30,828 nucleotides of DNA from a virus. Location of the stretch: positions 1 through 30,828 of the IMG/VR virus record IMGVR_UViG_3300036945_001068; one strand, written 5' to 3'. Every line of letters starts with the position of its first letter. Positions within the stretch are counted from its first letter, which is position 1. The notes below the pieces were generated by a model, which was given only the letters and a program-made list of their open reading frames with translations, was not told where the DNA came from and did not search any database. Positions 6,108 to 24,600 of this stretch are shown one piece after another. A program made the position numbers and the translations under genes.

Positions 6108-6361
6108 ATTTGTTTAATGAACTTTTAGTTGACAATCCAAAAATAAACCAGATGACTCTTCGAGTTTTTGCTGACACCCTTGGCGTTTACGCTGAGGCGT
6201 CAAAAAACGTCAGAGAAAAAGGGGCCATAGTCCTGCACCCCAGGACTGGCGCCCCGATAGAAAACCCGTATCTAAAAATTCAGTCCGCCAATGGTATTTT
6301 GTTGGCAAAAATGAAAGTTATAAATAGCAGCCGCGTTTTAAAAATGCTTGGCCTTGCTTGA
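6095..6361 (+). CDS. Small protein resembling P27-family terminase small subunit
   Basis: This 88-residue protein shows the P27-type pattern: LRVFADTLGVYAEASKNVREKGAIV, then a conserved G-x-x-x-x-NPYLKI, a helix with LLAKMK, and SSRVLKMLGL at the end. P27 proteins normally recognise viral DNA for packaging and sit beside the large subunit. Here the likely functional small subunit is at 9689, so this copy is an orphan. Its overlap with the PLD-like gene suggests that the two act together. It might be a relic or a decoy, or a DNA-recognition partner for the neighbour; these roles are inferred. Confidence 0.6.
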   Translation: MGEINLFNELLVDNPKINQMTLRVFADTLGVYAEASKNVREKGAIVLHPRTGAPIENPYLKIQSANGILLAKMKVINSSRVLKMLGLA

Positions 6362-7859: not shown

Positions 7860-8101
7860 CGACATCTGACGAGGTTTTTGCCAGGCGCCGTGACATGACG
7901 CTTGTCACCCGGCTTGCAGACCCATCACCAATGATTAGCCGCACATGCCCAAGATGCGGGCAGCGGAAGACCATGGGCCTGACGGCCGCCCCGGGCCGCA
8001 AGTGGGCGAAGTACCGGGATGCAGGAGAAGGCCGCAAGCGCCTTGTTTTTGGCGGCCATGTGTGCTGCCCGGACTGCGTTTCCGGTGAGGTGAAGCAATG
8101 A
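7856..8101 (+). CDS. Small zinc-finger phage protein
   Basis: An 81-residue protein with two cysteine pairs: C31/C34 in RTCPRCGQRK and C70/C71/C74 in HVCCPDC. This is a probable single zinc ribbon enclosing a basic loop (GRKWAKYRDAGEGRKR). I chose ATG at 7856: it overlaps the cro stop by four bases and has GGAGA seven bases upstream. An upstream ATG at 7838 has no ribosome site. It is likely a nucleic-acid-binding early protein; its role is unknown. Confidence 0.7.
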   Translation: MTTSDEVFARRRDMTLVTRLADPSPMISRTCPRCGQRKTMGLTAAPGRKWAKYRDAGEGRKRLVFGGHVCCPDCVSGEVKQ

Positions 8102-8262
8102 GCAGCCCCCATCAAAAAAGAATTTCTGAAACTTTGCGAGCTTTGCGAAAAGGGGCGAAGCATGCCTTCACAAGCCCGCAGGGTGATGTTTTAGCGGCTG
8201 AGGTGGATATTTTTTATTCTGCCGCTGAAAAAGAAAGGCTGATGAATCATGGCATCGGCTGA
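8098..8262 (+). CDS. 54-residue unknown early protein
   Basis: The frame reads MSSPHQKRISETLRALRKG, then KHAFTSPQGDVLAAEVD and ends YSAAEKERLMNHGIG. It opens with ATG overlapping the upstream stop (ATGA at 8098-8101) and closes 14 bases inside the next gene. The tight packing and protein-like composition support a real gene despite its size. It is mostly helical and basic, with no known family. Confidence 0.55.
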   Translation: MSSPHQKRISETLRALRKGAKHAFTSPQGDVLAAEVDIFYSAAEKERLMNHGIG

Positions 8263-9304: not shown

Positions 9305-9308
9305 ATAA

Positions 9309-9692
9309 ATGACAGCCATGCTACAAAAGAGAAACCGCGTGCCCGACAATTTCCGCGCCCTTGGCCGCGAGCCAAGAATAAACGGCGAGCACCGCATGAA
9401 TAAGACCGAGGCAGAATATGCCCTTATGCTGGATGCCGAATACAAAAAAGGCAATATAATTTATTGGGCGTTTGAAGAAGTTAAATTCAGACTCGCTGAT
9501 AATACATTTTACACGCCTGATTTTATGGTCCTGCGGCACGACGGTGCGGTTGAATTCCACGAAGTCAAGGGCGCTCACGTCGAAGAAGACGCAAGGGTTA
9601 AATTCAAGGTTGCCCGTGATTCGCTGCCATTCCGTTTTGTCTGGGCGCAAAAGCTCAAGGGTGGGGCTTGGAATGTTGAGGTTGTCGCATGA
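9309..9692 (+). CDS. DUF1064-type PD-(D/E)XK nuclease
   Basis: This 127-residue protein fits the DUF1064 phage nuclease family. NKTEAEYALMLDAEYKKG provides the first acidic helix, YTPDF supplies D71, and EFHEVKGAH gives the E85-x-K87 catalytic pair. The order (E, then D, then ExK) is the PD-(D/E)XK arrangement also seen in Holliday-junction or branch-resolving enzymes. It lies just before terminase, where phages often encode such a resolvase, so resolving branched DNA before packaging is a reasonable but unproven role. The next gene overlaps it by four bases. Confidence 0.75.
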   Translation: MTAMLQKRNRVPDNFRALGREPRINGEHRMNKTEAEYALMLDAEYKKGNIIYWAFEEVKFRLADNTFYTPDFMVLRHDGAVEFHEVKGAHVEEDARVKFKVARDSLPFRFVWAQKLKGGAWNVEVVA

Positions 9693-10258
9693 CCGGCTCA
9701 AAACGAAATAGCTACGGCCTGACACCCAAGCAGGAGGATTTTGCGCTGGGGTTGGCTTCGGGCCTGAGCCAGGCTGCGGCCTACCGCAAGGCCTACCCGG
9801 CGGCGCTCAAGTGGGCCGACGCGACGGTGTGGCGCGAGGCTTCGCTGCTGGCGGCAAACCCCAAGGTTTCCACGAGGGTGCAAGACCTGCTGGACCGGGC
9901 CGCCAAGTCGCACGAAGTCACCGTGGAGCGGGTAATGATGGAGCTGGCCCGTCTGGCGTTTTTTGACATCCGCAAGTTGGTGGGCGACGACGGCCGGCCA
10001 CTGCCTTTGCAGCAGTTGGACGACGACACAGCCCGAGCGCTTGTCGGCCTTGAAGTTGTGCCCATTGGCAACGACCAGGTTGGCGTTGGCGAGGTGCTGA
10101 AGTTCAAGCTCGCCGACAAAAAGGGCGCGCTTGAGCTGCTGGGCCGCCGCCTGGGGATGTTCAACGACAAGTTGCAGCTTTCAAACCCGGACGGCAGCCC
10201 GCTGGCCCCGACCGTGGTGCGCATCGTCGGCAAAAAGCCTGCCGAGGTGGGCAAGTGA
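9689..10258 (+). CDS. terS: Terminase small subunit
   Basis: This 189-residue protein is of the terminase_2 kind. Its N-terminal DNA-binding part has LTPKQEDFALGLASGLSQ, then AAYRKAYPAA and ATVWREASLLAANPKV (the usual motif around helix 3), followed by RVQDLL. Residues 75-140 (VERVMMELARLAFFDIRKLV) form the oligomerisation region typical of the family, and the C-terminus has a GALELLGRRLGMFNDK stretch. It recognises phage DNA and loads the large subunit. It starts in the ATGA overlap at 9689-9692. Confidence 0.88.
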   Translation: MTGSKRNSYGLTPKQEDFALGLASGLSQAAAYRKAYPAALKWADATVWREASLLAANPKVSTRVQDLLDRAAKSHEVTVERVMMELARLAFFDIRKLVGDDGRPLPLQQLDDDTARALVGLEVVPIGNDQVGVGEVLKFKLADKKGALELLGRRLGMFNDKLQLSNPDGSPLAPTVVRIVGKKPAEVGK

Positions 10259-10398
10259 GCGGCTCGAAAGGCTCCACAGGCTTGCCAGGCCTGTTTTCTT
10301 TGCACGATCTGCGCCATTGTGGTGGGGTGGTAGCTTGTCGCCAAAAAAACGGCGCAATTGAGCTTGTTTGGCTGGCGGGGGTGGTGGCGGATGCGTGA
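10255..10398 (+). CDS. Possible 47-residue gene between terminase subunits
   Basis: A GTG at 10255 overlaps the terS stop (GTGA), and the frame stays open to TGA at 10396-10398, eight bases inside the likely terL start. Without it the terS-terL gap of about 130 bases would be unusually large for this compact chain. The product (SGSKGSTGLPGLFSLHDLRH, then a short hydrophobic tail LVWLAGVVADA) has no recognised family. The overlap pattern supports it; the composition is neutral. Confidence 0.4.
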   Translation: MSGSKGSTGLPGLFSLHDLRHCGGVVACRQKNGAIELVWLAGVVADA

Positions 10399-11629
10399 GA
10401 GCGAAGCCGAGATCATCCTGCCAGACAAGCTGGCCGACCTCTTCAGCCCGCCCCGTGGCGCGGTGCAGTACCGGGGCGCTCGCGGTGGGCGCGGCAGCGG
10501 AAAGAGCTTCAGCTTTGCCAAAATGGCCGCCACCTGGGGCTATGCTGAGCGGCTGCGGGTGCTGTGCGTGCGGGAGTATCAGGCCAGCATCAAAGAGTCT
10601 TTTCACGCCGAATTGAAGGCCGCAATTGAATCTGAGCCTTGGCTTTCGGCTGCATATGACGTGGGGGTTGATTACCTGAAAGGACGCAACGGCACGGAAT
10701 TTATTTTCCGTGGCCTGCACAGGTCTTTGGGGACCATTAAATCAACGGCCAAAATAGATTTGACGATTGTCGAAGAGGCCGAAGATGTTCCTGAAGGTGC
10801 ATGGCTTGCGCTTTTGGCGACTGTGCTTCGCAAAGACAAATCAGAAGCATGGGTTATTTGGAACCCTTCGCTGGACGGTAGCCCTGTTGATAATCGTTTT
10901 GTAAAGAACCCGCCCGAAAGCGCTTTAATCGTAGAGCTGAATTGGTGGGATAACCCGTTTTTCCCGGTCGGTCTTGATTTATTGCGCCGGCAAGATCAAG
11001 CAAGACTGGACCCGGCCACATATGCGCACGTTTGGGAAGGTGCGTATTTGGTCAACAGCGTCGCGCAGGTTCTGCATGGCAAGGTATCGGCAAAAGATTT
11101 CACCCCGGCCGCTGGGTGGGATGGGCCTTATTACGGTGCCGACTGGGGGTTTAGTCAAGACCCTACCGCAGCGGTCAGGTGCTGGGTCAACGACGGCCGG
11201 CTTTTTGTCGAGCATGAAGCGTATGGGGCTGGGGTCGAGCTTGACGAGCTGCCGACGCTTTTCGACGCCAAGCTGCCCGGCGTCCGCCAGCACGTCATGC
11301 GCGGAGACAGTGCGCGACCCGAAACGATTAGCCACTTGCGAGGAAAAGGGTTCCACCGGCTTGTGGCTGCCGATAAGTGGCCAGGAAGCGTCGAAGACGG
11401 GATTGCGTTTCTGCGGGGGTTTTTGGAAATCGTTGTGCACCCGCGTTGCGTGCACACGCTCAAGGAGGCAAGGCTGTGGAGCTACAAGGTAGACAAGTTG
11501 ACCGGGGATGTGCTGCCGGTCCTGGTAGATGCTCACAATCACGCTTGGGATGCGGTGAGGTATGCGCTGCAACCGATCATCCGCAAGCGCCACACGACAT
11601 GGGGCGCGATGAGCGTGCCGGGGCTGTGA
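10391..11629 (+). CDS. terL: Terminase large subunit, PBSX type
   Basis: The packaging motor ATPase and nuclease, 412 residues from the ATG at 10391. Walker A is GGRGSGKS (32-39) and Walker B is IDLTIVEEAED (122-132) with the catalytic Glu. The C-terminal RNase-H-like nuclease shows acidic residues D251 (YYGADWGFSQDPTA), D306 (MRGDSARPE) and D387 (NHAWDAVRYAL). I preferred ATG at 10391 because a G-rich site (GGGGG/GGTGG) precedes it; a TTG at 10358 would add 11 residues. It pulls DNA through the portal, which in this genome is encoded on the opposite strand at 15837-17246. Confidence 0.92.
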   Translation: MRESEAEIILPDKLADLFSPPRGAVQYRGARGGRGSGKSFSFAKMAATWGYAERLRVLCVREYQASIKESFHAELKAAIESEPWLSAAYDVGVDYLKGRNGTEFIFRGLHRSLGTIKSTAKIDLTIVEEAEDVPEGAWLALLATVLRKDKSEAWVIWNPSLDGSPVDNRFVKNPPESALIVELNWWDNPFFPVGLDLLRRQDQARLDPATYAHVWEGAYLVNSVAQVLHGKVSAKDFTPAAGWDGPYYGADWGFSQDPTAAVRCWVNDGRLFVEHEAYGAGVELDELPTLFDAKLPGVRQHVMRGDSARPETISHLRGKGFHRLVAADKWPGSVEDGIAFLRGFLEIVVHPRCVHTLKEARLWSYKVDKLTGDVLPVLVDAHNHAWDAVRYALQPIIRKRHTTWGAMSVPGL

Positions 11630-11934
11630 TGAGCAAAGACAGCCCGCCGGTTAGGCAGATGACAGCCATGCAGCTGCTGCTGGGTGAGCTGCGCGGCGTG
11701 CTTGACGATGCCGCATACAACCGGGTGAGAGTGGTGCTGGATTCGTGGGGCGCGCAGCGTGTCAGCCTGTTGCCAAGCCGGACCATCCGACAGCAGTGGG
11801 CGGCTGAGGCGGTCAAGGCCATGATTGCATCTGGCGCTGAGCGGCCGGCCGTGGTGCAGCGGCTGCGCACAGGGCACGGAATGTCGCGGTCAAAAGCGTA
11901 CCGGTTTTTGAGAGATTTGGAGGGGAATGGATGA
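11629..11934 (+). CDS. Small helix-turn-helix protein after terL
   Basis: A 101-residue basic protein. The start overlaps the terL stop (TGATG) and its own stop overlaps the next start (ATGA). The C-terminal third (AERPAVVQRLRTGHGMSRSKAYRFLRDL) is a clear helix-turn-helix, close in style to Mor-type activators. The middle carries SRTIRQQWAAEAVKAMI. It may be a DNA-binding regulator of late genes or a packaging accessory. Its place between terL and a head gene is unusual for a regulator, so the role is uncertain. Confidence 0.65.
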   Translation: MSKDSPPVRQMTAMQLLLGELRGVLDDAAYNRVRVVLDSWGAQRVSLLPSRTIRQQWAAEAVKAMIASGAERPAVVQRLRTGHGMSRSKAYRFLRDLEGNG

Positions 11935-13793
11935 CGGACGCAGAAGCCGAAAAACTGGTGGCGGATTTTGGCAAAGATGTGGCGGATCGGGCGGCGCAGC
12001 TGCTTGATAAGTTGCTGGCGATGCTCGAATCTGGGGTGCCACCCGCTGAAGCGATATGGTCATGCCAGCGTGGGTTTACCGGCTGGTATTGCCGAGGCCT
12101 CGCCGAAGCATTCGGCGAAGTGCTGAAAACGAATGTCGAGGTGCAGCAGGTGCTGAGCATGCCTGTAGGGGGCATTGCGCTGAGCCAGCGGCTTTATGCG
12201 CACAACAGCGACACCGCATCCCGGGCGCAGGCCATCATCAAAGATCACGCGCAAGGGCTTCACCAGGCGCGTGCGCTGGCCATGCGGCTGTTTGATGGCT
12301 ATGTGCCGGCTGACACGTCAGCACGACCCCTTGAAGGTCGAGCTGTGGCAGATTTGCCCAAGGCATTGCGTGAGCTGGTGCGCAACCCCAAGGCGAAAAG
12401 CGGTCTGCAAGATGTCTTTGCAAGCGCAAAGAAGGCGGCAGGACGGCTCAAGACGACAGCACTCAAAGCGGCTTATTCGGAGCTGCTGGATGACTGGGAG
12501 GCAGGCGCTGCAAGCCTCGCGCTGAAGAGCCGGCTTGAGATTGCCGTGCGCGAGAAGAATCGCTACATTGCAAATCGGATCGCGCATACCGAGCTGGCCA
12601 GGGCGTATGAAGTCAAAAAAGGACAGCAGATCATGCGGGATGACGGTGTGACCGTGGTCCAGGTCCTGCTGAACCCGGCTCACCCCGTCCGCGACATTTG
12701 TGACCTGCATGCCCGAGCCGATTTGTGGGGGCTTGGGCCTGGCCTGTACCCCAAGGCCCAGGCGCCGCAGCCAGTTTTCCACCCGTGGTGCTGGTGCAAG
12801 CTGCGCACGCGGCCCAGCATTTCGGCGATTGCGGCCCGCGAAGTGCCAGGCGGCGCAGCGGCATATCTTCGCGGGCTGAAGCCAGAGCATGCTGGGCAGG
12901 TCATGGGCAGCATTGATCGGGCACAAAAGGTGCTTTCAGGTCACCGGGTTGATGATGTCATCAACGCCGGGGTCGATCCGCTTTACCACCTCAGGCGCTT
13001 GGGTGATGTCGTCCAGGCGCTTGACGACGGGGAGCTTTCGGGATTTGATGTCAGTCCAAAAAAGAAATTTACCCCGCAAAAGACTGCAAAAAAAGCGGCC
13101 GAATGGGCCGTTGCTGCAGGATTGGTTGACAAAGCCGACTATACTGGGGTTCACTCAGATGTTGCGAACGAATTCAATCAATCACTCGCTTACCATGTTG
13201 ATAATTTCCCTGAGTTAAGAAAAAACCAGAAATTTATTGGCACCTGGCAAAGACAGTTCAAATTGTGGCGCGAAAACAAAATAAAAGAATCGATTGCTGC
13301 CATTGTTGCAAGCGGTGCCATGTCTGATATGGGGGCAATTAAGGTGCTGGCTGAATATCATGTGCCAACGCTAAAAATGAACCCTTTGGCTTTTGCTCAT
13401 TCGTGGGATGAAAACACGTACGGCGGCATTGCTGTCAACAAAACAAAGGGGGCTGACGCCGATGCAATGCGCAATTCGCTTCAGTACGTTGTGGACATAC
13501 AGTTCCACCCAGTCGGAACAAATACCATCAAGTCGGTGGCCGATCATGAGTTCGGCCACCAGCTTGATTATTTGTTGTCGCTTAGCAAAGACCCAGAAAT
13601 TCTTGCGGCTTATGATGATGCAAAGCAAGCCGGGATAAAAACCGAAGTGTCAACGTATGCCGGGGAAAACGTCAAAGAGTTTGTCGCTGAATGTTGGGCC
13701 GAATGGCTTAACAACCCGACTCCGCGAAAAATGGCCACGCGGGTGGCTAAAATCATCCAGGAAAAGTATGCAGCATTCAAAACCTCGCCCTGA
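11931..13793 (+). CDS. SPP1-gp7-type head protein fused to an HEFGH metallopeptidase-like domain
   Basis: This 620-residue protein has two parts. Residues about 205-300 are the SPP1 gp7/Mu F-type minor head domain (IANRIAHTELARAYEVKKGQ, then CDLHARADLWGLGPG and the Cys/His-rich FHPWCWCKL). The N-terminal 200 residues are the usual helical region. Residues about 375-620 carry HEFGH at 539-543 in ADHEFGHQLDYLL, followed by KEFVAECWAEW (E583/E587) about 40 residues later, the layout of a gluzincin-type zinc protease. GC falls sharply at the join: I count 80 of 120 G/C at 12661-12780 but 131 of 300 at 13081-13380. The C-terminal domain therefore looks acquired. It could be a capsid-carried enzyme injected with the DNA. 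Confidence 0.8.
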   Translation: MTDAEAEKLVADFGKDVADRAAQLLDKLLAMLESGVPPAEAIWSCQRGFTGWYCRGLAEAFGEVLKTNVEVQQVLSMPVGGIALSQRLYAHNSDTASRAQAIIKDHAQGLHQARALAMRLFDGYVPADTSARPLEGRAVADLPKALRELVRNPKAKSGLQDVFASAKKAAGRLKTTALKAAYSELLDDWEAGAASLALKSRLEIAVREKNRYIANRIAHTELARAYEVKKGQQIMRDDGVTVVQVLLNPAHPVRDICDLHARADLWGLGPGLYPKAQAPQPVFHPWCWCKLRTRPSISAIAAREVPGGAAAYLRGLKPEHAGQVMGSIDRAQKVLSGHRVDDVINAGVDPLYHLRRLGDVVQALDDGELSGFDVSPKKKFTPQKTAKKAAEWAVAAGLVDKADYTGVHSDVANEFNQSLAYHVDNFPELRKNQKFIGTWQRQFKLWRENKIKESIAAIVASGAMSDMGAIKVLAEYHVPTLKMNPLAFAHSWDENTYGGIAVNKTKGADADAMRNSLQYVVDIQFHPVGTNTIKSVADHEFGHQLDYLLSLSKDPEILAAYDDAKQAGIKTEVSTYAGENVKEFVAECWAEWLNNPTPRKMATRVAKIIQEKYAAFKTSP

Positions 13794-13953
13794 AATTCCG
13801 CAAGGAGTAGCGGCAATACTTCAAAAGATTGACGTGTCAGGCGGCATTATCACGAGTGGGCTTTGCGCCACGCCAGAAGATCAGGCTCTTTTTGATGCGG
13901 GGGACGAAGGCAAGCCGCCTAAATCAGCCACGGATGCTGACATTCAAGGCTAG
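13768..13953 (+). CDS. 61-residue unknown protein at the end of the rightward head chain
   Basis: ATG at 13768 with AGGA five bases upstream, overlapping the end of the head-protease gene in another frame by 26 bases. The protein begins MQHSKPRPEIPQGVAAILQ, continues with VSGGIITSG, and ends in an acidic tail. The last 30 bases overlap the 3' end of the leftward tail-terminator gene. No family is recognised. It is the last rightward gene before the inverted block. Confidence 0.55.
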   Translation: MQHSKPRPEIPQGVAAILQKIDVSGGIITSGLCATPEDQALFDAGDEGKPPKSATDADIQG

Positions 13954-14313
13954 CATTTTGTACCCCGCCACCCTGTCCTCATCTGTGATCGTCCCCAAAT
14001 ACTCGCAGATCAAATCTGGGCATGTGTAGCATGACGATATTAAAGATTCCTCCATCGTCAGCCACGCCGAATACACAGCTTCAAGTCCGCCAGATTCTGA
14101 TTCATCAATCGGGTGGCCAAAGTAAATCAACGCTTCGATATTCCGCCTGGAATTGATTGCGTCCGGCGCCAGCTTGCTTGGGACAATGCGGACAATGGGG
14201 TAATCGTCAGGCGAAATTCCGGCTTCAAGGCCGATTTTTGACGTTGCGATGCCCGGGACAGCTGCCAGGTGATCCCGCAGGGTAGTCAGCAGCGATTCGG
14301 CTTTGCTTGTCAT
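13924..14313 (-). CDS. Probable tail terminator/completion protein
   Basis: A 129-residue protein with the pattern of small tail-terminator proteins (gpU-like): an N-terminal helix (AESLLTTLRDHLAAVPG), then beta strands around DYPIVRIVPSKLAP, RRNIEALIYFGHPID, and a closing strand region (GYKMLALNVSI). Such proteins cap the tail tube and form the joint to the head. It is leftward, the last member of an operon that begins with the portal, and its 3' end overlaps the convergent rightward gene. The assignment rests on fold pattern and position. Confidence 0.6.
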   Translation of the reverse strand: MTSKAESLLTTLRDHLAAVPGIATSKIGLEAGISPDDYPIVRIVPSKLAPDAINSRRNIEALIYFGHPIDESESGGLEAVYSAWLTMEESLISSCYTCPDLICEYLGTITDEDRVAGYKMLALNVSIRG

Positions 14314-14316
14314 CGA

Positions 14317-14646
14317 TCAGCACCGCTCAAGGTTAATTCCCCATCCCCATGTGGCGCCGGATGCACCACCTGTGGCCGCGTCTGCTGCGGCTTGCGCCAT
14401 GCGTGCTTGCTGAAGCTGGCTGTCCCACTCTTTGCGGTAGTAGCCGAGTTTTACGGCGTAGGTATCTTCGGACGATGTGCCTTTCTCTATGGCCGTAATC
14501 ACGTAGGCTCTGGTGATTTCAAGCCGGATCACCCATGCCGCAGGCAGCGTGCCGATGTCGGCGACATCCGCAGCAGCCCGAGTTTCAATGTCGGTGGTGA
14601 TGTGCTTAGCCAGGAAGGCATCTGTGTATGTGTGGGCAAGAGGCAT
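14317..14646 (-). CDS. Probable head-tail connector protein
   Basis: A 109-residue protein: helical N-terminus (TYTDAFLAKHITTDIETRAAADV), then WVIRLEITRAYVITAIE and LGYYRKEWDSQLQQARMAQAA, ending in a glycine/tryptophan-rich tail (GGASGATWGWG). The helical bundle and its place directly between the gp10-like and terminator genes fit the small head-tail adaptor or head-completion class. Three bases separate it from the next gene. The sequence is not distinctive, so confidence is modest. Confidence 0.5.
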   Translation of the reverse strand: MPLAHTYTDAFLAKHITTDIETRAAADVADIGTLPAAWVIRLEITRAYVITAIEKGTSSEDTYAVKLGYYRKEWDSQLQQARMAQAAADAATGGASGATWGWGINLERC

Positions 14647-14648
14647 GG

Positions 14649-15086
14649 TTATTTGTCCATCAAAGATTGAATATGCCAGGCAAACATCCTGGGCGCCAGG
14701 TCAGCGGCGCGAATCATCCATGTGTCAGACCGGGTACCGGGGTGGTGAACCTCTTTGGCAAAAGCAAAATTGTCGCCTGCGGGCCATCGCAATGATTTTT
14801 TGTTGCGCGGCCTGATGATGTGCGGCTTGGTGCCCCAATGCACAAATAGCGCATGCGGCGCCGCTTGGGGGTCGTGAAAAATATCCCAGGCCAAACCGTC
14901 AGGGGACTGGAGCTTGTCGATTGATCGCACCAGGGCGCCGCGTTTGTTGTGCGTCGCCGCTTGCTCGGTGATGTATTGCTCTAGGTCTTCGGCGGCGGCT
15001 GCAATGGCGCGGCGAATTGATGCTTCGCCAAGCGCCGCCATTGCTTGCCTGACTTGATTTTCTGCCAGCTTTGCCGTGACGCGCAT
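14649..15086 (-). CDS. HK97-gp10-type head-tail joining protein
   Basis: This 145-residue protein has the gp10-family look: an N-terminal helix region, a central GALVRSIDKLQSPDG segment, then HALFVHWGTKPHIIRPRNKK, SLRWPAGDNF and HHPGTRSDTWM, the recurrent WGTKPHxI...HPG pattern of this class. A C-terminal helix (LAPRMFAWHIQSLMDK) follows. These proteins help join tail to head. Two-base and three-base gaps to the neighbours place it in the leftward operon. Confidence 0.75.
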   Translation of the reverse strand: MRVTAKLAENQVRQAMAALGEASIRRAIAAAAEDLEQYITEQAATHNKRGALVRSIDKLQSPDGLAWDIFHDPQAAPHALFVHWGTKPHIIRPRNKKSLRWPAGDNFAFAKEVHHPGTRSDTWMIRAADLAPRMFAWHIQSLMDK

Positions 15087-15089
15087 GTT

Positions 15090-15827
15090 TTAAGCCATTG
15101 CGGTAAAAACAAATTTTGCGCCTGAAGCTGTGCTAATTCCAATATTGACAACTACATGAGTATATCGTGCTGATATTTTTACCTCTCTAGCAAGAGCGCC
15201 TGACCCACCAACTCCATCAATGTATGCATCGACACCGCTGGCAAGGCAGCAAAAACCTTCTGGGGTTACACCATCATCGCTATGCAAGAAGTAAAGGCGA
15301 TAAATTGCGTTCGGCGCGTTTGCAACAGACAAAACAGCAGAGCTGTAATTACCCCAATCAGGTCCAAGATCAAAAATTACTGTGTAGGGGGACGACACCA
15401 CGTCGATTGTGCAAGACGCGGTGGTGTACCCAGTTCCGCCCGATGTTATGGTAATTGACGTGATGACGCCTGAGGCGTTTGAATTGGCATACCCAGCCGC
15501 CCCGCTGCCGTCGCCAGATATTGTTACCTTAAGCCGAGCTGATATCGGGTAGCCGCTGCCGCCTGAAGATACGGCAATTGCAGTAATGGCACCGCCTGAA
15601 ATAGTGGCCGACCCAGCTGTAAAGCCTGACCCGCTGGACGTACCACCGGCTTTGTTGGCAATGCTGCCAGACACCGCAGGAGATTGCCCCCCAATGGAGC
15701 CGATGGTTTTATCAGTCACCAGCCGGATGTTTGGCGGTCGTGCAAGCGCCCCGTTTTGATCTGCAAGGACGGGCAGCGGAAGAGTTTTGCCAGTAATCAG
15801 CCTGTAGGCTACATTCAAAAATGACAT
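15090..15827 (-). CDS. GGSGY-repeat structural protein, probable capsid decoration or neck protein
   Basis: A 245-residue protein with two glycine-rich beta repeats, about 41 residues apart, ending in GGSGY (89-93) and GGTGY (130-134), with the second preceded by SGVITSITITS. A similar repeat pair (GGTGY at 49-53 and 91-95) occurs near the start of the tail tube protein at 19575. The C-terminal 100 residues (FDLGPDWGNYSSAVLSVAN, then a closing strand region) look like a beta sandwich. This suggests surface or adhesion modules reused across virion proteins. The role is inferred from position between portal and gp10 and from the shared repeats. Confidence 0.55.
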   Translation of the reverse strand: MSFLNVAYRLITGKTLPLPVLADQNGALARPPNIRLVTDKTIGSIGGQSPAVSGSIANKAGGTSSGSGFTAGSATISGGAITAIAVSSGGSGYPISARLKVTISGDGSGAAGYANSNASGVITSITITSGGTGYTTASCTIDVVSSPYTVIFDLGPDWGNYSSAVLSVANAPNAIYRLYFLHSDDGVTPEGFCCLASGVDAYIDGVGGSGALAREVKISARYTHVVVNIGISTASGAKFVFTAMA

Positions 15828-15836
15828 TTTGCTATT

Positions 15837-17246
15837 TCACTTTTTGGGTTGTTGGGCTTGCTCTACGACGGAAGCAATCAAAGCGCTTTTTTCAGCCTCG
15901 TCAACTGAGTCGAATTCGCTGGCAACAATGGCCGTACGTTTTGCTGCAAGCACTTGATCTGGGAATCCGGTATTTTGCATTTCGGCCAGAATAGAAAGCT
16001 CGGTCACGCTGTCCACCAGGTTGAAATCTGTTGGCCACGCGACGGATACTCTGCTTTCAGTCCCTGTGGCCGATGCAAAAAGGCGCCACATTTCCATCTC
16101 AAGCTGCTGCATGCGTAGCGCAAAACTGGACAGTTCGGCGTTAAGCCGTTCAAACCGAACTTTGCGGGCCAGCCCGCTTTCAACCCCGGCGGTTGTGTCT
16201 GACGCTGCATCGTCTTGTGTGATCCTGCGGATTGCAGCTTGACATTCTGCGATTACTTTCAGATGCGTTTCGGCGTTGCCCTGATCTGGCGAAACAAAAT
16301 CTGGCCGCTCGCCTGGGTACGGCAGCATTGAATTAACACCAACTGAAGCCGTGAAAGCCGCCGGGTTGGGCTGCGATGTGTTTTGCGGTATTTGAAAGGT
16401 CAGAATAGAAAAAGTCTGCCCAGCAAGCAATTCGTCAAGACGCGAGCGGTGGTTGTAAATGGCCTTCGATAAATCTGCGACTTGCGCATATTTCCCCAAG
16501 CACGGGAATTTCATCCCTGATTCTGTAAACGGAACGACTGGGCAGGAATTAAAGCCGTGCGGTGCGCTGCGAATAACTTTGCCGACCTGATCCTTTATGC
16601 TCCATTCTTTTGAATCCCAGCGGCGGACAAGAATGCGCATGCCTTCACCGTCGCCAGCGTCTTCAAAAGTTTGAATTTCCACCCATTCAAACCGGCCTGA
16701 TTCTGATATTTCAAACGCCTTGACGTTTTCAGGGTCAACGGCAGACAAATAAGGCACGGCACGTCTGGCGATTTGATCTGCCATTGATTCGGCAGGCGCT
16801 GCTGATGGCATGTCAAGCAGCAGCAGCATTGACCCATACGCCTTGGCTTTCAGGGCAAATTCAGCAAAAAAAGCGTCAAGGCTGTTGCCCCGCATGTCTG
16901 CATTTGCCAGCAGCAGCTGCGTCAAAGGGGCTTGTGTCTCAGAGCGCAGCGGCCGGCGCCGGCTCAAAAAACCGACGAAGCGTTCACACGCTTCGCGCAA
17001 ATGGTTTTCGTACACCGCCATTTCTGCTCGGCTGGCGTACCGCTCTGGCGTCTCGCGTGGGTGCTGCGCAAGGTGGCAAATGCCCGCGATTTTGGGCACG
17101 CGACGGTAAGCGGTGGTGGTGGTGCCGTCGCCAAGCGTCACCGTCACCGGCTGATCTTCGCTCACCACAACGGGGTCGAAGCCGCCCTCGCCGTAAAAGG
17201 CCTCTCGGAGGTATCTGAATCTTTGGAAGGCGCGGGAATGCTGCAT
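15837..17246 (-). CDS. Portal protein
   Basis: This 469-residue protein fits the DUF4055/SPP1-like portal pattern: N-terminal YRRVPKIAGICHLAQHP, a wing (FVGFLSRRRPLRS), then YGSMLLLLDMP, PYLSAVDPENVKAFEI, the stem/clip region with PHGFNSCPVVPF, and the helical crown (LSKAIYNHRSRLDELLAGQ, then ESGLARKVRFERLNAEL). It is the vertex channel for DNA and docks with terminase. I use ATG at 17244-17246; a TTG one codon upstream is equally possible. It heads the leftward block and runs opposite to terL, scaffold and coat genes. Confidence 0.85.
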   Translation of the reverse strand: MQHSRAFQRFRYLREAFYGEGGFDPVVVSEDQPVTVTLGDGTTTTAYRRVPKIAGICHLAQHPRETPERYASRAEMAVYENHLREACERFVGFLSRRRPLRSETQAPLTQLLLANADMRGNSLDAFFAEFALKAKAYGSMLLLLDMPSAAPAESMADQIARRAVPYLSAVDPENVKAFEISESGRFEWVEIQTFEDAGDGEGMRILVRRWDSKEWSIKDQVGKVIRSAPHGFNSCPVVPFTESGMKFPCLGKYAQVADLSKAIYNHRSRLDELLAGQTFSILTFQIPQNTSQPNPAAFTASVGVNSMLPYPGERPDFVSPDQGNAETHLKVIAECQAAIRRITQDDAASDTTAGVESGLARKVRFERLNAELSSFALRMQQLEMEMWRLFASATGTESRVSVAWPTDFNLVDSVTELSILAEMQNTGFPDQVLAAKRTAIVASEFDSVDEAEKSALIASVVEQAQQPKK

Positions 17247-17343
17247 CAAGACAATTTCTCATCCCGGCGTCCCAGGCAATGCGCTGGTTTGGGAAAGCGG
17301 ATCAACAGAATCAAACGCACACCTACACATTTGGAGCGTGCGA
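17247..17343. promoter_or_regulatory. Divergent control region of portal and scaffold genes
   Basis: This 97-base gap separates the leftward portal gene from the rightward scaffold gene. Because no rightward transcript can serve the portal, a leftward late promoter must be here or reach here. I see no convincing sigma-70 boxes on either strand. A GGAG site (17333-17336) serves the scaffold ATG. Confidence 0.4.
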
Positions 17344-18021
17344 ATGGATCTGGCTGCATTGAAAGGCAAGCCTCTGGACGAAAAAACCCATGCCGACTTG
17401 GTGGCCTACGTTGACGGCTTGAAGACCGCCGGCGCAGACGCAGAAGCCAAGTTGCGCAAAGCCGGCACCGAGCATGCGGCCGCTCTGAAGGCTGTGAAGA
17501 CCGAGCGCGATGGCGCTTTTGAGCGCCTGGGCGTCACCACTGCCGAAGAACTGGCCGCGCTGCCCGACGCTAAGGGTCAGGCCGAAGCTGCTGCGCAGGT
17601 GGCCGCGAAGCTGAAGAAGCTGGAGCGCGAGGTGGCCGAAAAGACCCAAACGGTTGCTGACCTGACCGGCAAATACACGGCCGAGCGCCGGGATCGCGCC
17701 ATTGCTGCCGCAGTGGGCAAACAGAATTTTGTTGACCCCGAAGACGCTGCGGCTCTGCTGGGGCGGTCGGTGGTGATCGAGGGCGAAGACTTCTTTTCGA
17801 AGACCGGCGACGGCAAGCTGGTGAAGCTGGAAGACGCTGCCGCCGGCCTGGCCAAGACCAAACCCTACATGGTCAAGCCCAGCGGCACCGGTGGGACCGG
17901 CAGCGGCTACGGCGGCAAAAGTGGCGGGCAGGGGCAACAGCAGATGACCCGGGCTGAATTTGACGCGCTGCCGCATCCCGAGCGGGCCAAGGCCATCAAA
18001 GACGGCGTCGCCCTGGTGTGA
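17344..18021 (+). CDS. Capsid scaffold protein (gp20-like)
   Basis: A 225-residue highly charged protein. Residues about 25-115 form a coiled coil (EAKLRKAGTEHAAALKAV, then AAQVAAKLKKLEREVAEK). A short domain follows, and then a glycine-rich linker (GTGGTGSGYGGKSGGQG) and a basic tail, the usual scaffold layout. ATG at 17344 has GGAG seven bases upstream; a GTG at 17338 is too close to that site. It sits directly before the coat gene, as scaffolds do, and should be lost from mature heads. Confidence 0.8.
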   Translation: MDLAALKGKPLDEKTHADLVAYVDGLKTAGADAEAKLRKAGTEHAAALKAVKTERDGAFERLGVTTAEELAALPDAKGQAEAAAQVAAKLKKLEREVAEKTQTVADLTGKYTAERRDRAIAAAVGKQNFVDPEDAAALLGRSVVIEGEDFFSKTGDGKLVKLEDAAAGLAKTKPYMVKPSGTGGTGSGYGGKSGGQGQQQMTRAEFDALPHPERAKAIKDGVALV

Positions 18022-18052
18022 CACGAGCAAATAAAAAAAGGAATGAGCCGCC

Positions 18053-19183
18053 ATGGCAAATACGCTTACCTCAATGATCCCGGACTTGTACGAAGCGATG
18101 GATGTCATCTCGCGTGAGCTGGTGGGGTTCATCCCCGCCGTCATGCGTGATCACAATGTCGAGCGTGCGGCCGTTGGGCAGTCAGTCCGGTCTTTTGTGG
18201 CCCCGGCTGCCACCGCATCTGACATTTCTCCGGCAATGACTGTGCCGGCGGCTTCCGACCAGCCCATCGGCAATGTCGCGATGACCATCTCCAAATCGCG
18301 AGGCGTTGGTTTCCGTTGGACCGGCGAAGAGCAGCGCGGCCTGAATTCTGGCGCTGGCTACGCGAACATCCGCGTTGCCCAAATTGCGCAAGCCATGCGC
18401 ACCCTGGTGAACGAAATCGAAACCGATTTGGGGGCTTTGGCGGTGTCGGCAAGTCGTGGCTACGGCACCCCAGGCACCACGCCTTTTGCCTCCAACCTGT
18501 CCGACCCTGCTCAGGTCCGCAAGATTTTGAGCGACAACGGCTCCCCGCTGAGCGATTTGCAGCTGGTCATCGACACGGCCGCTGGCGCGAACATGCGGAC
18601 CCTGGCCAATCTGACCAAAGCCAACGAGGCCGGCGGCACCGACATGCTGAGACGCGGCGTGCTGCTGGACGTTCACGGGTTTGCGATCCGCGAATCTGCG
18701 AAAGTCCGCAGCTACACCAAGGGCACGGGCGCCAGCTATTTGAGCAACGGGGCGCACTCGGTCGGTGCCACCGCCATTGCCGTGGATACCGGCAGCGGTA
18801 CTGTCTTGGCCGGCGACACGGTCACCTTCGCAGGTGACGCGAACAAGTACGTGGTGGCCACGGCCCTTGCCGCCGGGGTTGTCACGATTGCCGCCCCGGG
18901 CCTGCGCCAGTCGCTCGCTGACAACGTCGCCATGACCGTGGGCAACAGCGCCACGCAAAACCTGGCTTTTGCCCGCACCGCCCTTGCGCTTGCCACCCGG
19001 GCGCCGGCGCTGCCGGATGAAGGCGACCTGGCGATTGACCGCACGATGATTGTTGATCCGGCGAGCGGGCTTGGCCTTGAAGTTTCGATGTACCCTGGCT
19101 ATCGGATGATCCAGTACGAGGTCGCCGTTGCTTGGGGTGTGCAGTGCTTCAAGCCCGAACACACCGCTTTGCTGCTGGGCTGA
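18053..19183 (+). CDS. Major capsid protein, P22-coat type
   Basis: This 376-residue protein matches the P22 gp5-type coat family. The N-terminus has LYEAMDVISRELVGFIP and DISPAMTVPA, then RGVGFRWTGEEQRGL, AQAMRTLVNEIETDLGALAV, and the MLRRGVLLDVHGFAIRES stretch. Residues about 223-300 form an inserted beta domain (SVGATAIAVDTGSG, then GDTVTFAGDANKYVV), like the P22 I-domain region. The C-terminus (GLGLEVSMYPGYRMIQYEV) is typical. It assembles on the scaffold encoded just upstream. Confidence 0.88.
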   Translation: MANTLTSMIPDLYEAMDVISRELVGFIPAVMRDHNVERAAVGQSVRSFVAPAATASDISPAMTVPAASDQPIGNVAMTISKSRGVGFRWTGEEQRGLNSGAGYANIRVAQIAQAMRTLVNEIETDLGALAVSASRGYGTPGTTPFASNLSDPAQVRKILSDNGSPLSDLQLVIDTAAGANMRTLANLTKANEAGGTDMLRRGVLLDVHGFAIRESAKVRSYTKGTGASYLSNGAHSVGATAIAVDTGSGTVLAGDTVTFAGDANKYVVATALAAGVVTIAAPGLRQSLADNVAMTVGNSATQNLAFARTALALATRAPALPDEGDLAIDRTMIVDPASGLGLEVSMYPGYRMIQYEVAVAWGVQCFKPEHTALLLG

Positions 19184-19189
19184 CGCGCC

Positions 19190-19387
19190 ATGGCCAACCG
19201 CAAACCAGCCCCCAAACCCACCCCGCCGGAAGACGTGCCACCGGTGGGGTGCGTTTTTATGTTTCGCACAGACCCAGACACGGGCGAGCTTGCCCGAATT
19301 GATGTCGATTCTGGGTCCGGGTCTGTCGAGGCGATGCAGGTGCAAGGGTGGGCGCTTCAGCCCCCCGCCGACGCTGAGGTGAATTGA
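19190..19387 (+). CDS. 65-residue unknown protein after the coat gene
   Basis: Basic proline-rich N-terminus (NRKPAPKPTPPEDVPP), then GCVFMFRTDPDTGELARI and VEAMQVQGWAL. It starts six bases after the coat stop and its own stop overlaps the next start (TGATG). It might be a capsid-associated or head-completion peptide, but there is no recognisable domain. Confidence 0.55.
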   Translation: MANRKPAPKPTPPEDVPPVGCVFMFRTDPDTGELARIDVDSGSGSVEAMQVQGWALQPPADAEVN

Positions 19388-19557
19388 TGCCACCCAATCT
19401 TCTTGATGACCCGGGCGGGTTTTCCCAAACCCTCGAAGCCCCCCTGGATGGCGGGCAAGCCCCGGAAATTGTCCCGGCTGAGCCGATGGCGCCGCCACGT
19501 GAAGGTGGCCGCTACAGCTTTGACCCGGCGACCGGCATCTACACCCGAATCGAATAA
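19387..19557 (+). CDS. 56-residue unknown protein before the tail tube gene
   Basis: ATG at 19387 overlaps the upstream stop (TGATG). The product begins MPPNLLDDPGGFSQTLEAP and ends YSFDPATGIYTRIE, with an acidic, proline-rich middle. The terminal DPATGIYTRIE echoes the DPDTGELARID of its upstream neighbour, so the two small proteins may be distantly related. The 17-base gap to the tail tube gene carries the ribosome site AAGGAAGGAAG. Confidence 0.55.
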   Translation: MPPNLLDDPGGFSQTLEAPLDGGQAPEIVPAEPMAPPREGGRYSFDPATGIYTRIE

Positions 19558-19574
19558 GGAAGGAAGGGCCAAAA

Positions 19575-20849
19575 ATGGCACGTCAAGAGCTGCGCAGCCG
19601 TGACATGGTTTTGCTGCTGGGCATTGAATCTGCTTTGGGCAGCGGCAGCGGGGCAAGCATTACCCTTGCCGCTGCGGTGAATGGCGCGGTGCCGGTTGGC
19701 GCCGCCACGGTCACATCAGGCGGCACCGGCTACCCGGCCAGCAAAACCATCTATGTGAACTTCACGATTTCTTCGAACTCGACCGCGATGGGCACGATCA
19801 CGACCGGCAGTACCGGCGTGATTACCGCAGCGGCCGTGCTGGATGGCGGCACGGGCTACGCGCACGCCACCAACACGGCTTCGACCATCAGGGCCGCCAA
19901 CAACTCGGCCTATGGCTCTGACTACGTCGGTTCATCGGGCTTGTCCACTGCCGACGCGATTTTGATCGGCAGCGACATGAAGCTGACGCACGAAAAAATC
20001 GAAGTCAAACGCGATGTGTTGCGGGCTTACATGGGCGGGCAAGAGACGATGGCCGGCGACACCTGGGCGACCATTTCATTCAGCTTTGAACTTGGCGGGA
20101 GCGGCGTTGCCGACACCCCGGCGATGTGGGGCCGCATCATTCGGATTTTGGGCTTCGCTGAATCGGTCACGTCAAGCACCAAAGTCGATTACACCCCGGT
20201 GTCTGACGACTTTCCTTCAGCTGCGGGAACGCTGTATTTCGGCGGAATTAGCAAACGCCTGAAAGGCATACGTGCCCTATCAGCCGAACTCGACATGCCC
20301 GTCGCCGGGCTGCCGACGGGCAAATGCACATTGCTGTGCATGATCGTCAAAAACACCCCTGCAAACCTGCCGACGCCGACTTTTGCGGCCTGGAAGCCGC
20401 CCATCGTCATCACTGACGCGAATTCGGGCGACATCCAATTCGGCTGCACCTACAGCACCTCGACCGGCGCCATTTCTGGTGGCACGTCTTATCCCTCCAC
20501 TGGCCTGAAGCTGAAAATCGACAACTCGGGCAAGTACCGGGCGCTTCTGGGCGGCGGCAGCGGCGTTTACATCTCTGACCGCAAAGTCACCGGCGAAATC
20601 CTCATCGATCAGCTGCCGAGCGAGCGGGTGCAGACGATTGCGGACTGGACGTCGAACACGGCGGCGGCTTTGGGCTTTTCGCTCGGGATCACGGCGGGGT
20701 ATCGCTTGCGGGCGTTTGCTCCGAACCGGGTCATCACTGACGTGGCGCCCGAAGATTTGGATGGCAAGCTGATGACCAAAATCGGGTTTGAATGCCGCCC
20801 GACAGCGGGCAGCACGGGCAACGATGAGCTTCGGCTCGTGACGATGTAA
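19575..20849 (+). CDS. Major tail tube protein
   Basis: This 424-residue protein begins ARQELRSRDMVLLLGIES and carries the tail-tube pattern DMKLTHEKIEVKRDVLRAYMG, then WATISFSFELGGSG, MWGRIIRILGFAE and the paired-strand region ELDMPVAGLPTGKCTLLC. Near the N-terminus two GGTGY repeats (49-53 and 91-95) are inserted, which partly explains its length. It would polymerise around the tape measure to form the tube. The tail chaperone frameshift gene follows, the standard order. A double AAGGA site precedes the ATG. Confidence 0.8.
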   Translation: MARQELRSRDMVLLLGIESALGSGSGASITLAAAVNGAVPVGAATVTSGGTGYPASKTIYVNFTISSNSTAMGTITTGSTGVITAAAVLDGGTGYAHATNTASTIRAANNSAYGSDYVGSSGLSTADAILIGSDMKLTHEKIEVKRDVLRAYMGGQETMAGDTWATISFSFELGGSGVADTPAMWGRIIRILGFAESVTSSTKVDYTPVSDDFPSAAGTLYFGGISKRLKGIRALSAELDMPVAGLPTGKCTLLCMIVKNTPANLPTPTFAAWKPPIVITDANSGDIQFGCTYSTSTGAISGGTSYPSTGLKLKIDNSGKYRALLGGGSGVYISDRKVTGEILIDQLPSERVQTIADWTSNTAAALGFSLGITAGYRLRAFAPNRVITDVAPEDLDGKLMTKIGFECRPTAGSTGNDELRLVTM

Positions 20850-20861
20850 AAGGGGCCACCG

Positions 20862-21221
20862 GTGAGCAAATACAAACTGTCGGTCGGCGCAGTCATTGAA
20901 GTGCCCGTTGTGCTGAAGATCACGGGCCGTGGCGGCAAAGTCGAAGAGCACAAATTCACCTGGCATGCCGACCGCCTGGGGACTGAGTCTTTTGCTGCCG
21001 AAATGCGCGAAGGCCTGACCGTGGTGGACTTTTTGGCCCGGCACGGCAAAAGCTGGACGGGGCAAAAGCTGGTGCTTGAAGACGACGGAACCCCGGCCAC
21101 GTACTCTGAAGATGCGCTTCGCTTTTTGTGCGAAATCCCGTTTGCGCCGGGTGTGATTTTTGAGTCATACCAGGAGCACATCTTCGTTGCACGCGGGGTG
21201 GCCGGGGCAGCAAAAAACTAG
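20862..21221 (+). CDS. Tail assembly chaperone G
   Basis: The short chaperone, 119 residues, with a GTG start preceded by AAGGGG. It has a KYKLSVGAVIEVPVVLKITG strand region, then EEHKFTWHADRLGTESF, EGLTVVDFLARHGKSW and a C-terminal helix part. It ends AAKN then TAG, and the last codons form the slippery heptamer A AAA AAC, exactly in frame. In lambda-type phages G binds tube monomers and the G-T fusion binds the tape measure. The gene sits between tube and tape genes, as expected. Confidence 0.82.
   Translation: MSKYKLSVGAVIEVPVVLKITGRGGKVEEHKFTWHADRLGTESFAAEMREGLTVVDFLARHGKSWTGQKLVLEDDGTPATYSEDALRFLCEIPFAPGVIFESYQEHIFVARGVAGAAKN
21212..21218 (+). other. -1 frameshift slippery site A AAA AAC
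   Basis: In the G frame the codons are GCA AAA AAC TAG, giving the canonical X XXY YYZ heptamer immediately before the stop. A six-base stem, AGCTCG (21220-21225) with CGAGCT (21232-21237), begins one base after the heptamer. That spacing is shorter than usual for a frameshift stimulator. Confidence 0.85.
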
Positions 21222-21664
21222 CTCGGGCCGTCGAGCTTTGGGCCACCGGCGGCTTCGATCTTTCCGGCCCGGGCGACGATGACACCTCAGGGCAGCCTGA
21301 GGCTCAGTCGCGTGAGGCGACTTTGCGCGAGCTGCTGGCTCAAGCCGGCGTCACCCTTGCTGAAGGCGCCACAGTGCGGCCGGTGGCCACATCTGAGCCG
21401 CTTGATTTTTGGCTGTGGCCAGACAGCGAACCGTTTTTTTTGCACCTTTGGCCGGCGATTCAAACGGAGTGGCGCACCGGAATGGCGGGGCCGATTGGCC
21501 TTGACAAAGCGGGTGTCGATTGGCACATCAAGCGGATGGGCTGGCGGCGTCGCAAAGCCGCTGAAGCAAAGCGGGCGGTGATCGTCATGGAGCGGGCCGC
21601 GCTGTCTGCATGGGCAAAGCAGCGCAAAAGGCAAGCGCAAAAATCAAGCGGGAAAGCCCAGTGA
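21218..21664 (+). CDS. T extension of the tail assembly chaperone (-1 frameshift product, DUF1799-like)
   Basis: This frame has no convincing start of its own. After slipping at 21212-21218 translation continues as LARAVELWATGGFDLSG for 148 codons to TGA at 21662-21664, making a G-T fusion of about 267 residues. The C-terminal part (EPLDFWLWPDSEPFFLHLW, then QTEWRTGMAGPIGLD and HIKRMGW) has the DUF1799 look, known as the T part in related phages. The 101 bases between the G stop and the first in-frame TTG are coding only by frameshift, which strongly supports recoding. It recruits the tape measure, whose gene follows. Confidence 0.85.
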   Translation, partial: LARAVELWATGGFDLSGPGDDDTSGQPEAQSREATLRELLAQAGVTLAEGATVRPVATSEPLDFWLWPDSEPFFLHLWPAIQTEWRTGMAGPIGLDKAGVDWHIKRMGWRRRKAAEAKRAVIVMERAALSAWAKQRKRQAQKSSGKAQ

Positions 21665-24600
21665 GCAGCACGACAAACCCCAAAGTTTCTTTGCGCTTTG
21701 CTGTCGAGGGCGCCACGGCAGCACAGCAGCAGCTTGATGCTGTCGGCGAGGCTGCGTCTGAGCTGGCGTCCGAGATTGACAGCGCGGCTCAGTCGGGCGA
21801 GCGCCTGGGCGAATCACTCGGCTCGCGGCTGCCCGAAGCCACTCGCGCAGCAGATGCGGCGGCAGAACGCTTTGTTGCCACCTTGCGCGACCAGGTGGCC
21901 ACCCTTGGCATGGGCGAGGCAGAGCTACTGCAATACCGGGCGGCTGAGCTTGGCGTTGCTGAGCAGGCCGCAGGCCTGATTCAGAAGCTCACCGCAGCAA
22001 AGCAGGCGACCCAAGAAAAAGCGGCGGCAGACGCCAGGGCCGCAATGGCTGCGCTTGAGCATTCGAGGGCGATCCACCAGCAACAGCAGCAGGCACAGAG
22101 CTTCATCGCAAGCCTGCGCGACCAGGTGGCCACGCAAGGCATGGCGGCATCCGATTTGCTGCGCTATCGGGCGGCACAGCTGGGCGTGGCCGAAGAAGCC
22201 CGCGAGCTGATCGGCCAGCTGGACGCGCAATCTGCCGCTATGGCCACAGGCGGTATTTCTGCCGGGCAAATGTCGCAGGCCATGCTCATGCTCCCGATGC
22301 AGATGACCGACGTGGCGGTGAGCATTGCAAGCGGCATGCCAATTTGGTTGGTGGCCGTTCAGCAGGGTGGGCAGCTCAAGGATTCGTTCGGCGGCATTGG
22401 CCCGGCGCTGAAAGCTGCCGGAGGCTATGCCCTTGCCGCCGTCAATCCATTCACCATCCTGGGCGCCGCTGTGGCGGTGGTGGGCGTGGCCGCTTACCAG
22501 GGGTGGGCTGAAAGCAACCGGCTGCGCGATGCGCTGATCATGACCGGCAATGCCGCAGGGGTCACATCTGGGCAGGTGAGCGAAATGGCTGGCCGCGTGG
22601 CCGATGCATCAAAGACCTCGGTCGGTTCTGCCCGCGAAATTTTGGCAAGCCTTGTCGAGACCGGAAAGATTGGTGGCCCGGCGCTTGAGTCGGTGGCCAC
22701 TGCTGCCGGGCATTTTGCGAACGTCAGCGGCAAGACAGCGGTGGAAAGCGCTGAAATGCTGGCCGGGATGGCTGACGGCGTGGCCGACTGGGCTGCAAAG
22801 CAAAACGCGGCCTGGCATTTCCTGACAGCGGCCCAGCTGACCCACATTCGCACGCTCGAACAGGCTGGTCAAAAACAGGCCGCGATGCAAGCCGCTGGCG
22901 ATGCGCTCACTGAGCATCTGCGCGGGCAAACGTCGCAGCTGAGCTACCTTGAAACCGCCTGGCGCGGCACCGGTGCTGCTGCATCATGGGCATGGGACAA
23001 GATCATGGGCTTGGGGCGCTCAAAAGACGGCGCCGCCCAGATTGACGAAGACCTTGCCCGGGTACAGGAGCAACTGGCTGGCATGGAGCGGCTGCGTGCC
23101 CTGGCCGCACGCAACAGCGGCGGGGCAGCGCCAGAAGCATCGGAAGGGTACAAGGCACTAAAAGCGCTTGAAGAGAACCTGATTGCCCGCAAAGCACTTG
23201 CAGAGCGTGGCGCTGCTGCTGCGGCTGAAATTGCAGAGCGTGAGCAAGCAGAGGCCAAAAAAGCAGCTCAAGCGCAAGATGTCAGCGCGGCCGAAATTGC
23301 GGCGTCTTTGTCTGCCGTGGCCGAAAGCTACGAGGCCGCAAAAGTCCGCATCAAGGCCGCACTTGATGCACAGCAAATCACGCTTCAGCAGTCGCTGGCT
23401 CAGACGCTGCAAGTTGATTTGTCAGCCATGTCGTCGAAGCGGCAAGCCGTGCAGTCCGAGCTGGAGCTGCTGGCAAAGCGCGATGACACCCTGGCCCAGC
23501 AAGCACAGCTCAGAGGTCAGCTCACGACACTGGATCAGCAAGCGGCTACGGCGACGACCCGGTATCTTGCCGATGTAGCGGCAGCTTTCCGGGCCGAAGC
23601 GCAAGCCCGGCTGGATGCGTACAACGCGCGGCTGTCGATCCAGGGCGCGGCCACGGTGGCCGACCTGACCGAAGCTGACGCTATCCAAAAGCAGATTCAG
23701 GCCCAGCTGGAACACAACGCCACCGTTGGCGCCACCGTGGAAGCACTGCGCCAGCGCGAGCTGGCCAAGGTCAAAGACGCCCGGGCCACAGCTGAGCAGC
23801 GGCTGCAAGACGCGCTCGCGGCGAATGCTGCGCCCGAGCAAATCGAGGCCATCACACTGCAAGTTGAGGCGCTGCGCCAGCTTGTGAAGGCCAAGCAAGA
23901 CGCTGCCGGCATTGACGCGGCAGCCGATGCGTCCAGCAAGCTCGGGGCGCAAAATGGCGCGGCAGCGCAGGCGCAAAGCAGGCGCGAAGCCCTGGCCAGC
24001 CTGCAATCTCCGCTCGCTGCCCTGGTGGGCACATACGCCGATTTGACGGCCTCACAGGCTGAATGGGGGCGTCAGGCTGAGCTGATTGCGGCGCAGATGC
24101 AGGGCAATGAAGCGCAGCGCAAAAAAGCTGCCCAGGACCAGCTGACGCTGCAAGGGCGCATGACTGCGGGCCAGCTTGCAAGCTATGCATCGATCAGCGG
24201 GGCAGCGAAATCGCTTTTCGGCGAGCAGACTGCCGGCTACAAGGCGCTGGAAGCCAGCGAGAAAGCCTGGCGGCTGTTGCAGCTGGCTGAATCGATGGGC
24301 GTGACCCCGCAGATCATCAAAGACATTCTGGGGGTCACATCGGCTCAGATTGCCGGTGACCAGGCAAAAGCCGCCAGCGCAACAGCTGCCGCCGGGGTTG
24401 ACGTTGCGGCAAGCACTGCCACGGGCACGGCTGCTGCTGGCGCAGCGGTGGCCAAGCAAGCGGCCGGAGGCGACCCGTACACTGCCTTGGCACGCATGGC
24501 GGCAATGGCCGCAGCAATGGCAGCGCTGGGGTATGCCACCGGCGCCATCGGCAGTGGCGGGACTGTGGACCCGGGCAAAACCGGCACCGGCACAGTGCTG

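Follow-up and report, generated by a model that had tools for sequence, protein, structure and literature searches.

We describe here a group of head genes that run against their neighbours in a virus record of 30.8 kb with linear ends (IMG/VR record IMGVR_UViG_3300036945_001068, positions 1 to 30,828; this whole stretch is hereafter called the window). The genes for the connector, from the portal protein through the tail terminator, form a leftward operon that is inserted in a module of rightward head and tail genes. The explanation that we consider reasonably probable is that this connector operon was reversed early in a siphophage lineage, and that a two-way late promoter common to both drives it together with the scaffold-coat-tail operon.

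Five intact minus-strand open reading frames (ORFs), spaced by only 2–9 bp, occupy positions 13924–17249 and are flanked by the rightward TerS-TerL-MuF genes on one side and the rightward scaffold, coat and tail genes on the other. The features of the block and of its surroundings are as follows:

15837–17249 (probable start ATG 17243), minus strand: portal protein, 470 aa (phrog_145 3.5e-51); leads the leftward operon
15090–15827, minus strand: GGSGY-repeat virion-type protein, 245 aa (its repeats match phrog_460/438 and further structural families)
14649–15086, minus strand: Neck1, HK97 gp10-like protein (phrog_5 2.5e-7; family alignment)
14317–14646, minus strand: X2, adaptor-like all-helical protein, 109 aa (family alignment; AlphaFold model)
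13924–14313, minus strand: X1, predicted tail terminator, 129 aa (lambda gpU fold); closes the leftward operon
17244–17343, portal ATG 17243 to scaffold ATG 17344: divergent intergenic region, 100 bp; proposed two-way late promoter
13768–13953, plus strand: possible small ORF after MuF, 61 aa (read from sequence; 30 bp tail-to-tail overlap with the X1 3′ end)
9689–10258, plus strand: terminase small subunit TerS (Terminase_2 2e-18)
10358–11629, plus strand: terminase large subunit TerL (Terminase_3 2.6e-18)
11931–13793, plus strand: MuF-type head morphogenesis protein, 620 aa (phrog_1657 1.6e-17; phrog_324 1.7e-16)
17338–18021 (probable start ATG 17344), plus strand: head scaffolding protein (phrog_194 1e-13)
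18053–19183, plus strand: P22-type major coat protein (phrog_283 9e-97)
19575–20849, plus strand: tail tube protein with N-terminal GGTGY repeats (Phage_tube_2 7.8e-12)
21610–26616, plus strand: tape measure protein (phrog_24 3.4e-92)

A first reading of the window, made from the sequence alone (the original prediction), had named portal, GGSGY-repeat, gp10-like, connector-like and terminator-like genes in a tight leftward operon. These identities held, the portal by phrog_145, Neck1 by phrog_5 and X1 by its gpU fold, with X2 adaptor-like only. Profile matches also confirmed the rightward terminase, head protein, scaffold, coat and tail genes, and the block converges with MuF, as had been anticipated.

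The window portal is 30–32% identical to the portals of phages NrS-1, NrS-2 and NrS-3 and of MW202423, and its nearest IMG/VR relative shares 49% identity. Neck1 gives a weak match to the solved HK97 gp10 family protein 9mu2 (E 0.032) and has homologues in MW202423 and NrS-1. X1 and X2 of the window have no Pfam or PHROG match, and profile searches of the Protein Data Bank with X1, X2, portal and Neck1 returned nothing strong. Structures were predicted from the window and the rows of the collected loci only. The AlphaFold model of X1 (predicted local distance difference test score, pLDDT, 88.9) matches gpU, the tail terminator of lambda (Foldseek 3.5e-6; VIA Z 13.0, root mean square deviation 2.8, 118 residues), the gpU-type fold extends over the whole protein, and one member of the X1 family matches the tail terminator family phrog_78 (0.0017). 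According to its modelled structure, X1 is thus a tail terminator with the lambda gpU fold. The X2 model (pLDDT 84.5) consists of four helices and gave no significant match when its fold was compared (best Z 7.0). X2 is conserved in 62 inverted loci, and its position and helical fold class only suggest an adaptor-like protein.

Conservation and descent of the reversed layout

Relatives were gathered by scans with portal alignments, followed by automatic gene maps; single-sequence portal scans of genome and viral contigs had found no relative, whereas the alignment-based scans succeeded. An inverted portal of near-full length was found in 85 loci, corresponding to 66 portal clusters at 90% identity, which include the cultured Nitratiruptor phages NrS-1 and NrS-3, the Manatee Spring phage MW202423 and many loci from IMG/VR and from metagenome-assembled genomes. 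As the reversed portal occurs in at least 66 distinct relatives, cultured phages included, misassembly of the inverted block is excluded; this is also the outcome of the comparison of gene order with relatives that the original prediction had proposed. The reversed connector layout is therefore an old, conserved trait of a lineage and not a peculiarity of this prophage.

Two gene orders prevail. In type A, that of the window, rightward TerL and MuF are followed by leftward X1, X2, Neck1 and portal and then by rightward scaffold and coat; in type B, that of NrS-1, the leftward block reads portal, Neck1, X1, X2 between the same rightward neighbours. In a third arrangement (type D; L064, L074, L100), only the portal lies leftward before scaffold and coat, and Neck1, X2 and X1 follow rightward after the tail genes. 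Forward members have either rightward TerL, MuF and portal (L007, L077, L079, L080) or the order neck-portal-MuF-scaffold (L023, L108). The window shares the traits of the lineage: its portal and neck genes lie on the strand opposite scaffold, and MuF stands after TerL and before the block. Two of the type B blocks (L035, L037) come from contigs binned as Methanocaldococcaceae and Gracilibacteria; their tree position suggests that they are possibly mis-binned Campylobacterota phages.

The forward relatives also bear on the claim that flipping the block back does not restore the usual order. This claim fails, its yardstick having been the lambda/HK97-like order: since L007, L077, L079 and L080 place MuF before portal, a flipped block returns the portal to its place in this lineage. 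The related claim, that the arrangement is more than a simple inversion, stands only in part. It loses ground on the portal, which regains its place upon flipping, and keeps it in that the portal is accompanied by the neck and terminator genes and that the same genes, on the same strand, are ordered differently in type B.

In a portal tree of 117 rows, built by a quick method, the inverted lineage forms one clade of 91 rows (Shimodaira–Hasegawa-like approximate likelihood ratio test, 98), 85 of which are inverted. Apart from the A-like L093, which stands at the base of B, the clade consists of two sister groups, type A (66 rows, starred) and type B (25 rows, 92). The window falls inside the clade, nested with L005 and L050 in starred sets. 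Four changes of orientation explain the whole tree. The most parsimonious account is one old inversion at the base of the clade and about three later re-orientations, with the caution that counts of changes alone do not polarise them.

The nearest relatives of the MuF, X1, X2, Neck1, portal and scaffold genes of the window are all inverted phages, and those of its coat are phages of canonical order (58–65%). L005, the closest relative of the window by portal, carries a coat of the other family (phrog_247, L005:8160–9113) and not of phrog_283; on these grounds, and with a coat tree made, sequence comparison indicates that the coat gene is exchanged beside a stable connector block.

The ratio of nonsynonymous to synonymous substitution rates (dN/dS), calculated for close pairs of relatives, is mostly 0.03–0.25 for the leftward genes. 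A higher value was obtained for the portal of one pair (L095/L099, 0.34), and a few values were saturated; the window genes are intact but have no relative close enough for this calculation. These ratios indicate that the leftward genes are under purifying selection and functional in reversed orientation across the lineage. Frameshifts in them, which the original prediction had named as grounds for giving it up, are not what was found.

The divergent gap and a candidate two-way promoter

The gap between the leftward block and scaffold commonly measures about 100 bp in type B and extends over roughly 30–140 bp in type A, taken from longest-ORF starts. In type B it contains a near-palindrome, TTTTTCCAAAAA, whose distance is 51–53 bp to the start of scaffold and about 50 bp to that of X2. 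In L017 (at Neck1/portal) and L027 (at X2/X1 and Neck1/portal) the operon is interrupted by inserts, and extra copies of TTTTTCCAAAAA there precede the next gene, portal or X1, by 49–51 bp; another copy is found about 47–50 bp ahead of a gene that comes after the tape measure. Extra copies of the element were located at L027:7270–7281, L027:9866–9877 and L017:9865–9876, one of the L027 copies lying between two divergent genes. The pattern gave 14 matches in 13 scanned virus records, against none for a reversed control pattern. In 12 aligned gaps the core did not vary, and a TACAAT-like hexamer lies downstream of it, towards scaffold. A different dyad (CTATGATAATGCGTTATTCTATAG-like) occupies the equivalent position in the type A relatives L034, L015, L092, L102 and L107. 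The type B near-palindrome is probably a two-way late promoter of the kind known from phage P2.

Portal and scaffold start procapsid assembly together. In the mechanism that we propose, the reversed orientation would have been fixed early in a siphophage lineage whose coats belong to phrog_283 or phrog_247. The approximately 100 bp that separate portal (or X2) from scaffold would hold a two-way late promoter common to both operons. One late-activator site would then give rise to two transcripts, the leftward one for the ring proteins and the rightward one for scaffold, coat and tail. The near-palindrome would bind the late activator, and the window, being of type A, would use a version of its own. 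Portal and scaffold would be induced at the same moment, and the ring proteins, needed in 6–12 copies, would be kept off the transcript for coat and scaffold, made in hundreds of copies.

Several observations weigh against this mechanism, mostly at the window itself. Its own gap contains no sigma-70 site, dyad or repeated element: a sigma-70 scan of positions 8100–21700 gave three sites, below the shuffled mean of five, and none in the divergent gap; no inverted or direct repeats were found in 17230–17350; and BLASTN of the gap against the window returned chance 9–14-mers only. An expectation-maximisation motif search among the nearest relatives and the subclade of the window recovered only coding sequence (scaffold start codons), and a late activator gene was looked for and none was identified. 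Furthermore, the type B element has no exact copy in L010, L011, L022 or L094, and the forward members listed above indicate that the orientation is not strictly required. The shared element in the divergent gap was seen in type B and in one type A subclade, and was not found in the window. The view that the leftward genes need a late promoter of their own is judged right, although that of the window was not identified; homology of layout only would place it in the divergent gap.

These same observations favour, in part, another explanation, by which the block was inverted long ago and the layout brings no regulatory advantage. Independent promoters would have been acquired on either side, and the arrangement would persist because the ring proteins co-evolve and recombination seldom splits the block or turns it back. 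The three later re-orientations within the clade, the separation of the neck genes from the portal in type D and the failure to find the shared element in the gap of the window agree with it, but in type B both starts are served by one central element, and types A and B alike repeatedly show short divergent gaps. We regard this explanation as unlikely. Much less probable still is a role of antisense transcription, in which transcription continuing from terminase-MuF through the block, and in the other direction from the block through MuF, would generate overlapping late RNAs that tune the level or timing of portal. MuF and X1 do lie tail-to-tail in the window with no clear terminator between them, and the convergent gaps are short or slightly negative in several relatives; the length of that gap is, however, not conserved, it holds 1.8–2.9 kb in several relatives, and a promoter on the scaffold side makes read-through unnecessary. 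An assembly error or a chimera of two phages has only the oddity of the layout and the linear ends of an IMG/VR-type record in its favour and is already refuted as an explanation, because the layout recurs in cultured phages and in many assemblies made independently. A connector operon reversed early and co-expressed with scaffold from a shared late promoter thus remains the explanation that we prefer.

The variable slot and neighbouring genes

The GGSGY protein occupies the slot between portal and Neck1, the content of which is not conserved among relatives, and it has no relative among the examined loci. The slot varies in type A between 0 and about 6 kb and is filled with unrelated genes, fibre-like in part (as in L015 and L020); in L052, L053, L056, L072, L082 and L098 it is hypervariable, with 3.5–6 kb of mostly unannotated genes. 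The slot protein (15090–15827) has GGSGY/GGTGY repeats in common with the tail tube protein (19575–20849), where they lie in the N-terminal part. Because it sits in a variable slot, we read the GGSGY protein as an accessory virion or adhesion protein. Its assignment as head closure protein Hc2 was dropped: the match covers its repeats, the tail tube shares the repeat type and the slot is variable.

With respect to the neighbouring genes, a small ORF is also present after MuF in NrS-1 and NrS-3, at the place matching 13768–13953, a counterpart by position. The C-terminal part of MuF contains HEFGH at 13545–13559, a zinc-metalloprotease-type motif (HExxH), with no Pfam family match there; temperate phages are known to encode MuF proteins with additional enzymatic domains at the C-terminus. 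A second ORF that weakly resembles a small terminase (6095–6361; Terminase_4 3.1e-4, phrog_83 0.0015) lies 3.3 kb before the main TerS, adjoining an endonuclease gene (5481–6107). The tail chaperone gene (20862–21221) is followed by a stretch up to the tape measure gene at 21610 without a clearly identified gene, and a programmed frameshift product may be encoded in the 20862–21610 stretch.

Comparison with known phages

The order of head genes in tailed phages is generally taken to be almost fixed. A whole clade departs from it here, and its re-flipped and relocated members are natural experiments, with which both the need for portal-scaffold co-induction and the uncoupling of the connector from coat copy number become testable. 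In such phages, annotation that relies on gene order will overlook or misname connector genes, X1 and X2 of the window being examples.

The cultured temperate Nitratiruptor siphophages NrS-1, NrS-2 and NrS-3 have, like the window, portal, Neck1, X2 and X1 opposite terminase, MuF, scaffold, coat and tail, but their block order is X2-X1-Neck1-portal and their coat belongs to phrog_247. The label "44 kDa structural protein" in NrS-1 has the GenBank name alone as its basis. The main text of the 2022 comparison of Nitratiruptor phages does not mention the portal, opposite orientation or inverted genes (PMC9723563). Caudoviricetes sp. ctgwJ031 (MW202423, Manatee Spring) shares the type A block order and the phrog_283 coat with the window; it differs by another gene in the portal-Neck1 slot and by a coat that is only 34% identical. 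Acinetobacter phage vB_AbaS_qsb1 and Klebsiella phage 5 LV-2017 have coats of the same family as the window (58% and about 49% identical to its coat), but their genes run TerL-portal-MuF-scaffold-coat-neck-terminator on a single strand.

Among the open-licence papers searched, we found no description of inverted portal or connector genes, the VarioGold and Serratia phage papers included; any novelty is to that extent provisional.

Phage P2, with P-Q leftward and O-N-M-L rightward, also has its portal opposite scaffold and coat. In the P2 record, one activator site (3057–3087) between the two operons is shared by the divergent promoters pP and pO, which start at 3016 and 3127. Unlike the window, where TerL is rightward, P2 has TerL and portal leftward and its neck and terminator genes are not. 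The window portal and P2 gpQ are not detectably related by BLASTP (E 0.27), a comparison of sequences and not of folds. Membership of the window in the P2-like phages (Peduoviridae) was rejected on these two points, the rightward TerL and a portal not homologous to gpQ by BLASTP. The inversions of P2 and of the window lineage look independent, as they involve different genes and BLASTP shows no relationship between the portals. We lean, with some hesitation, towards regarding these phages as a large lineage not described in the papers searched, in which the whole connector is a reversed operon with a two-way late promoter beside scaffold, the gene order takes two forms and the adjacent coat gene is exchanged; it would represent a second, independent arrival at the divergent late switch of P2.

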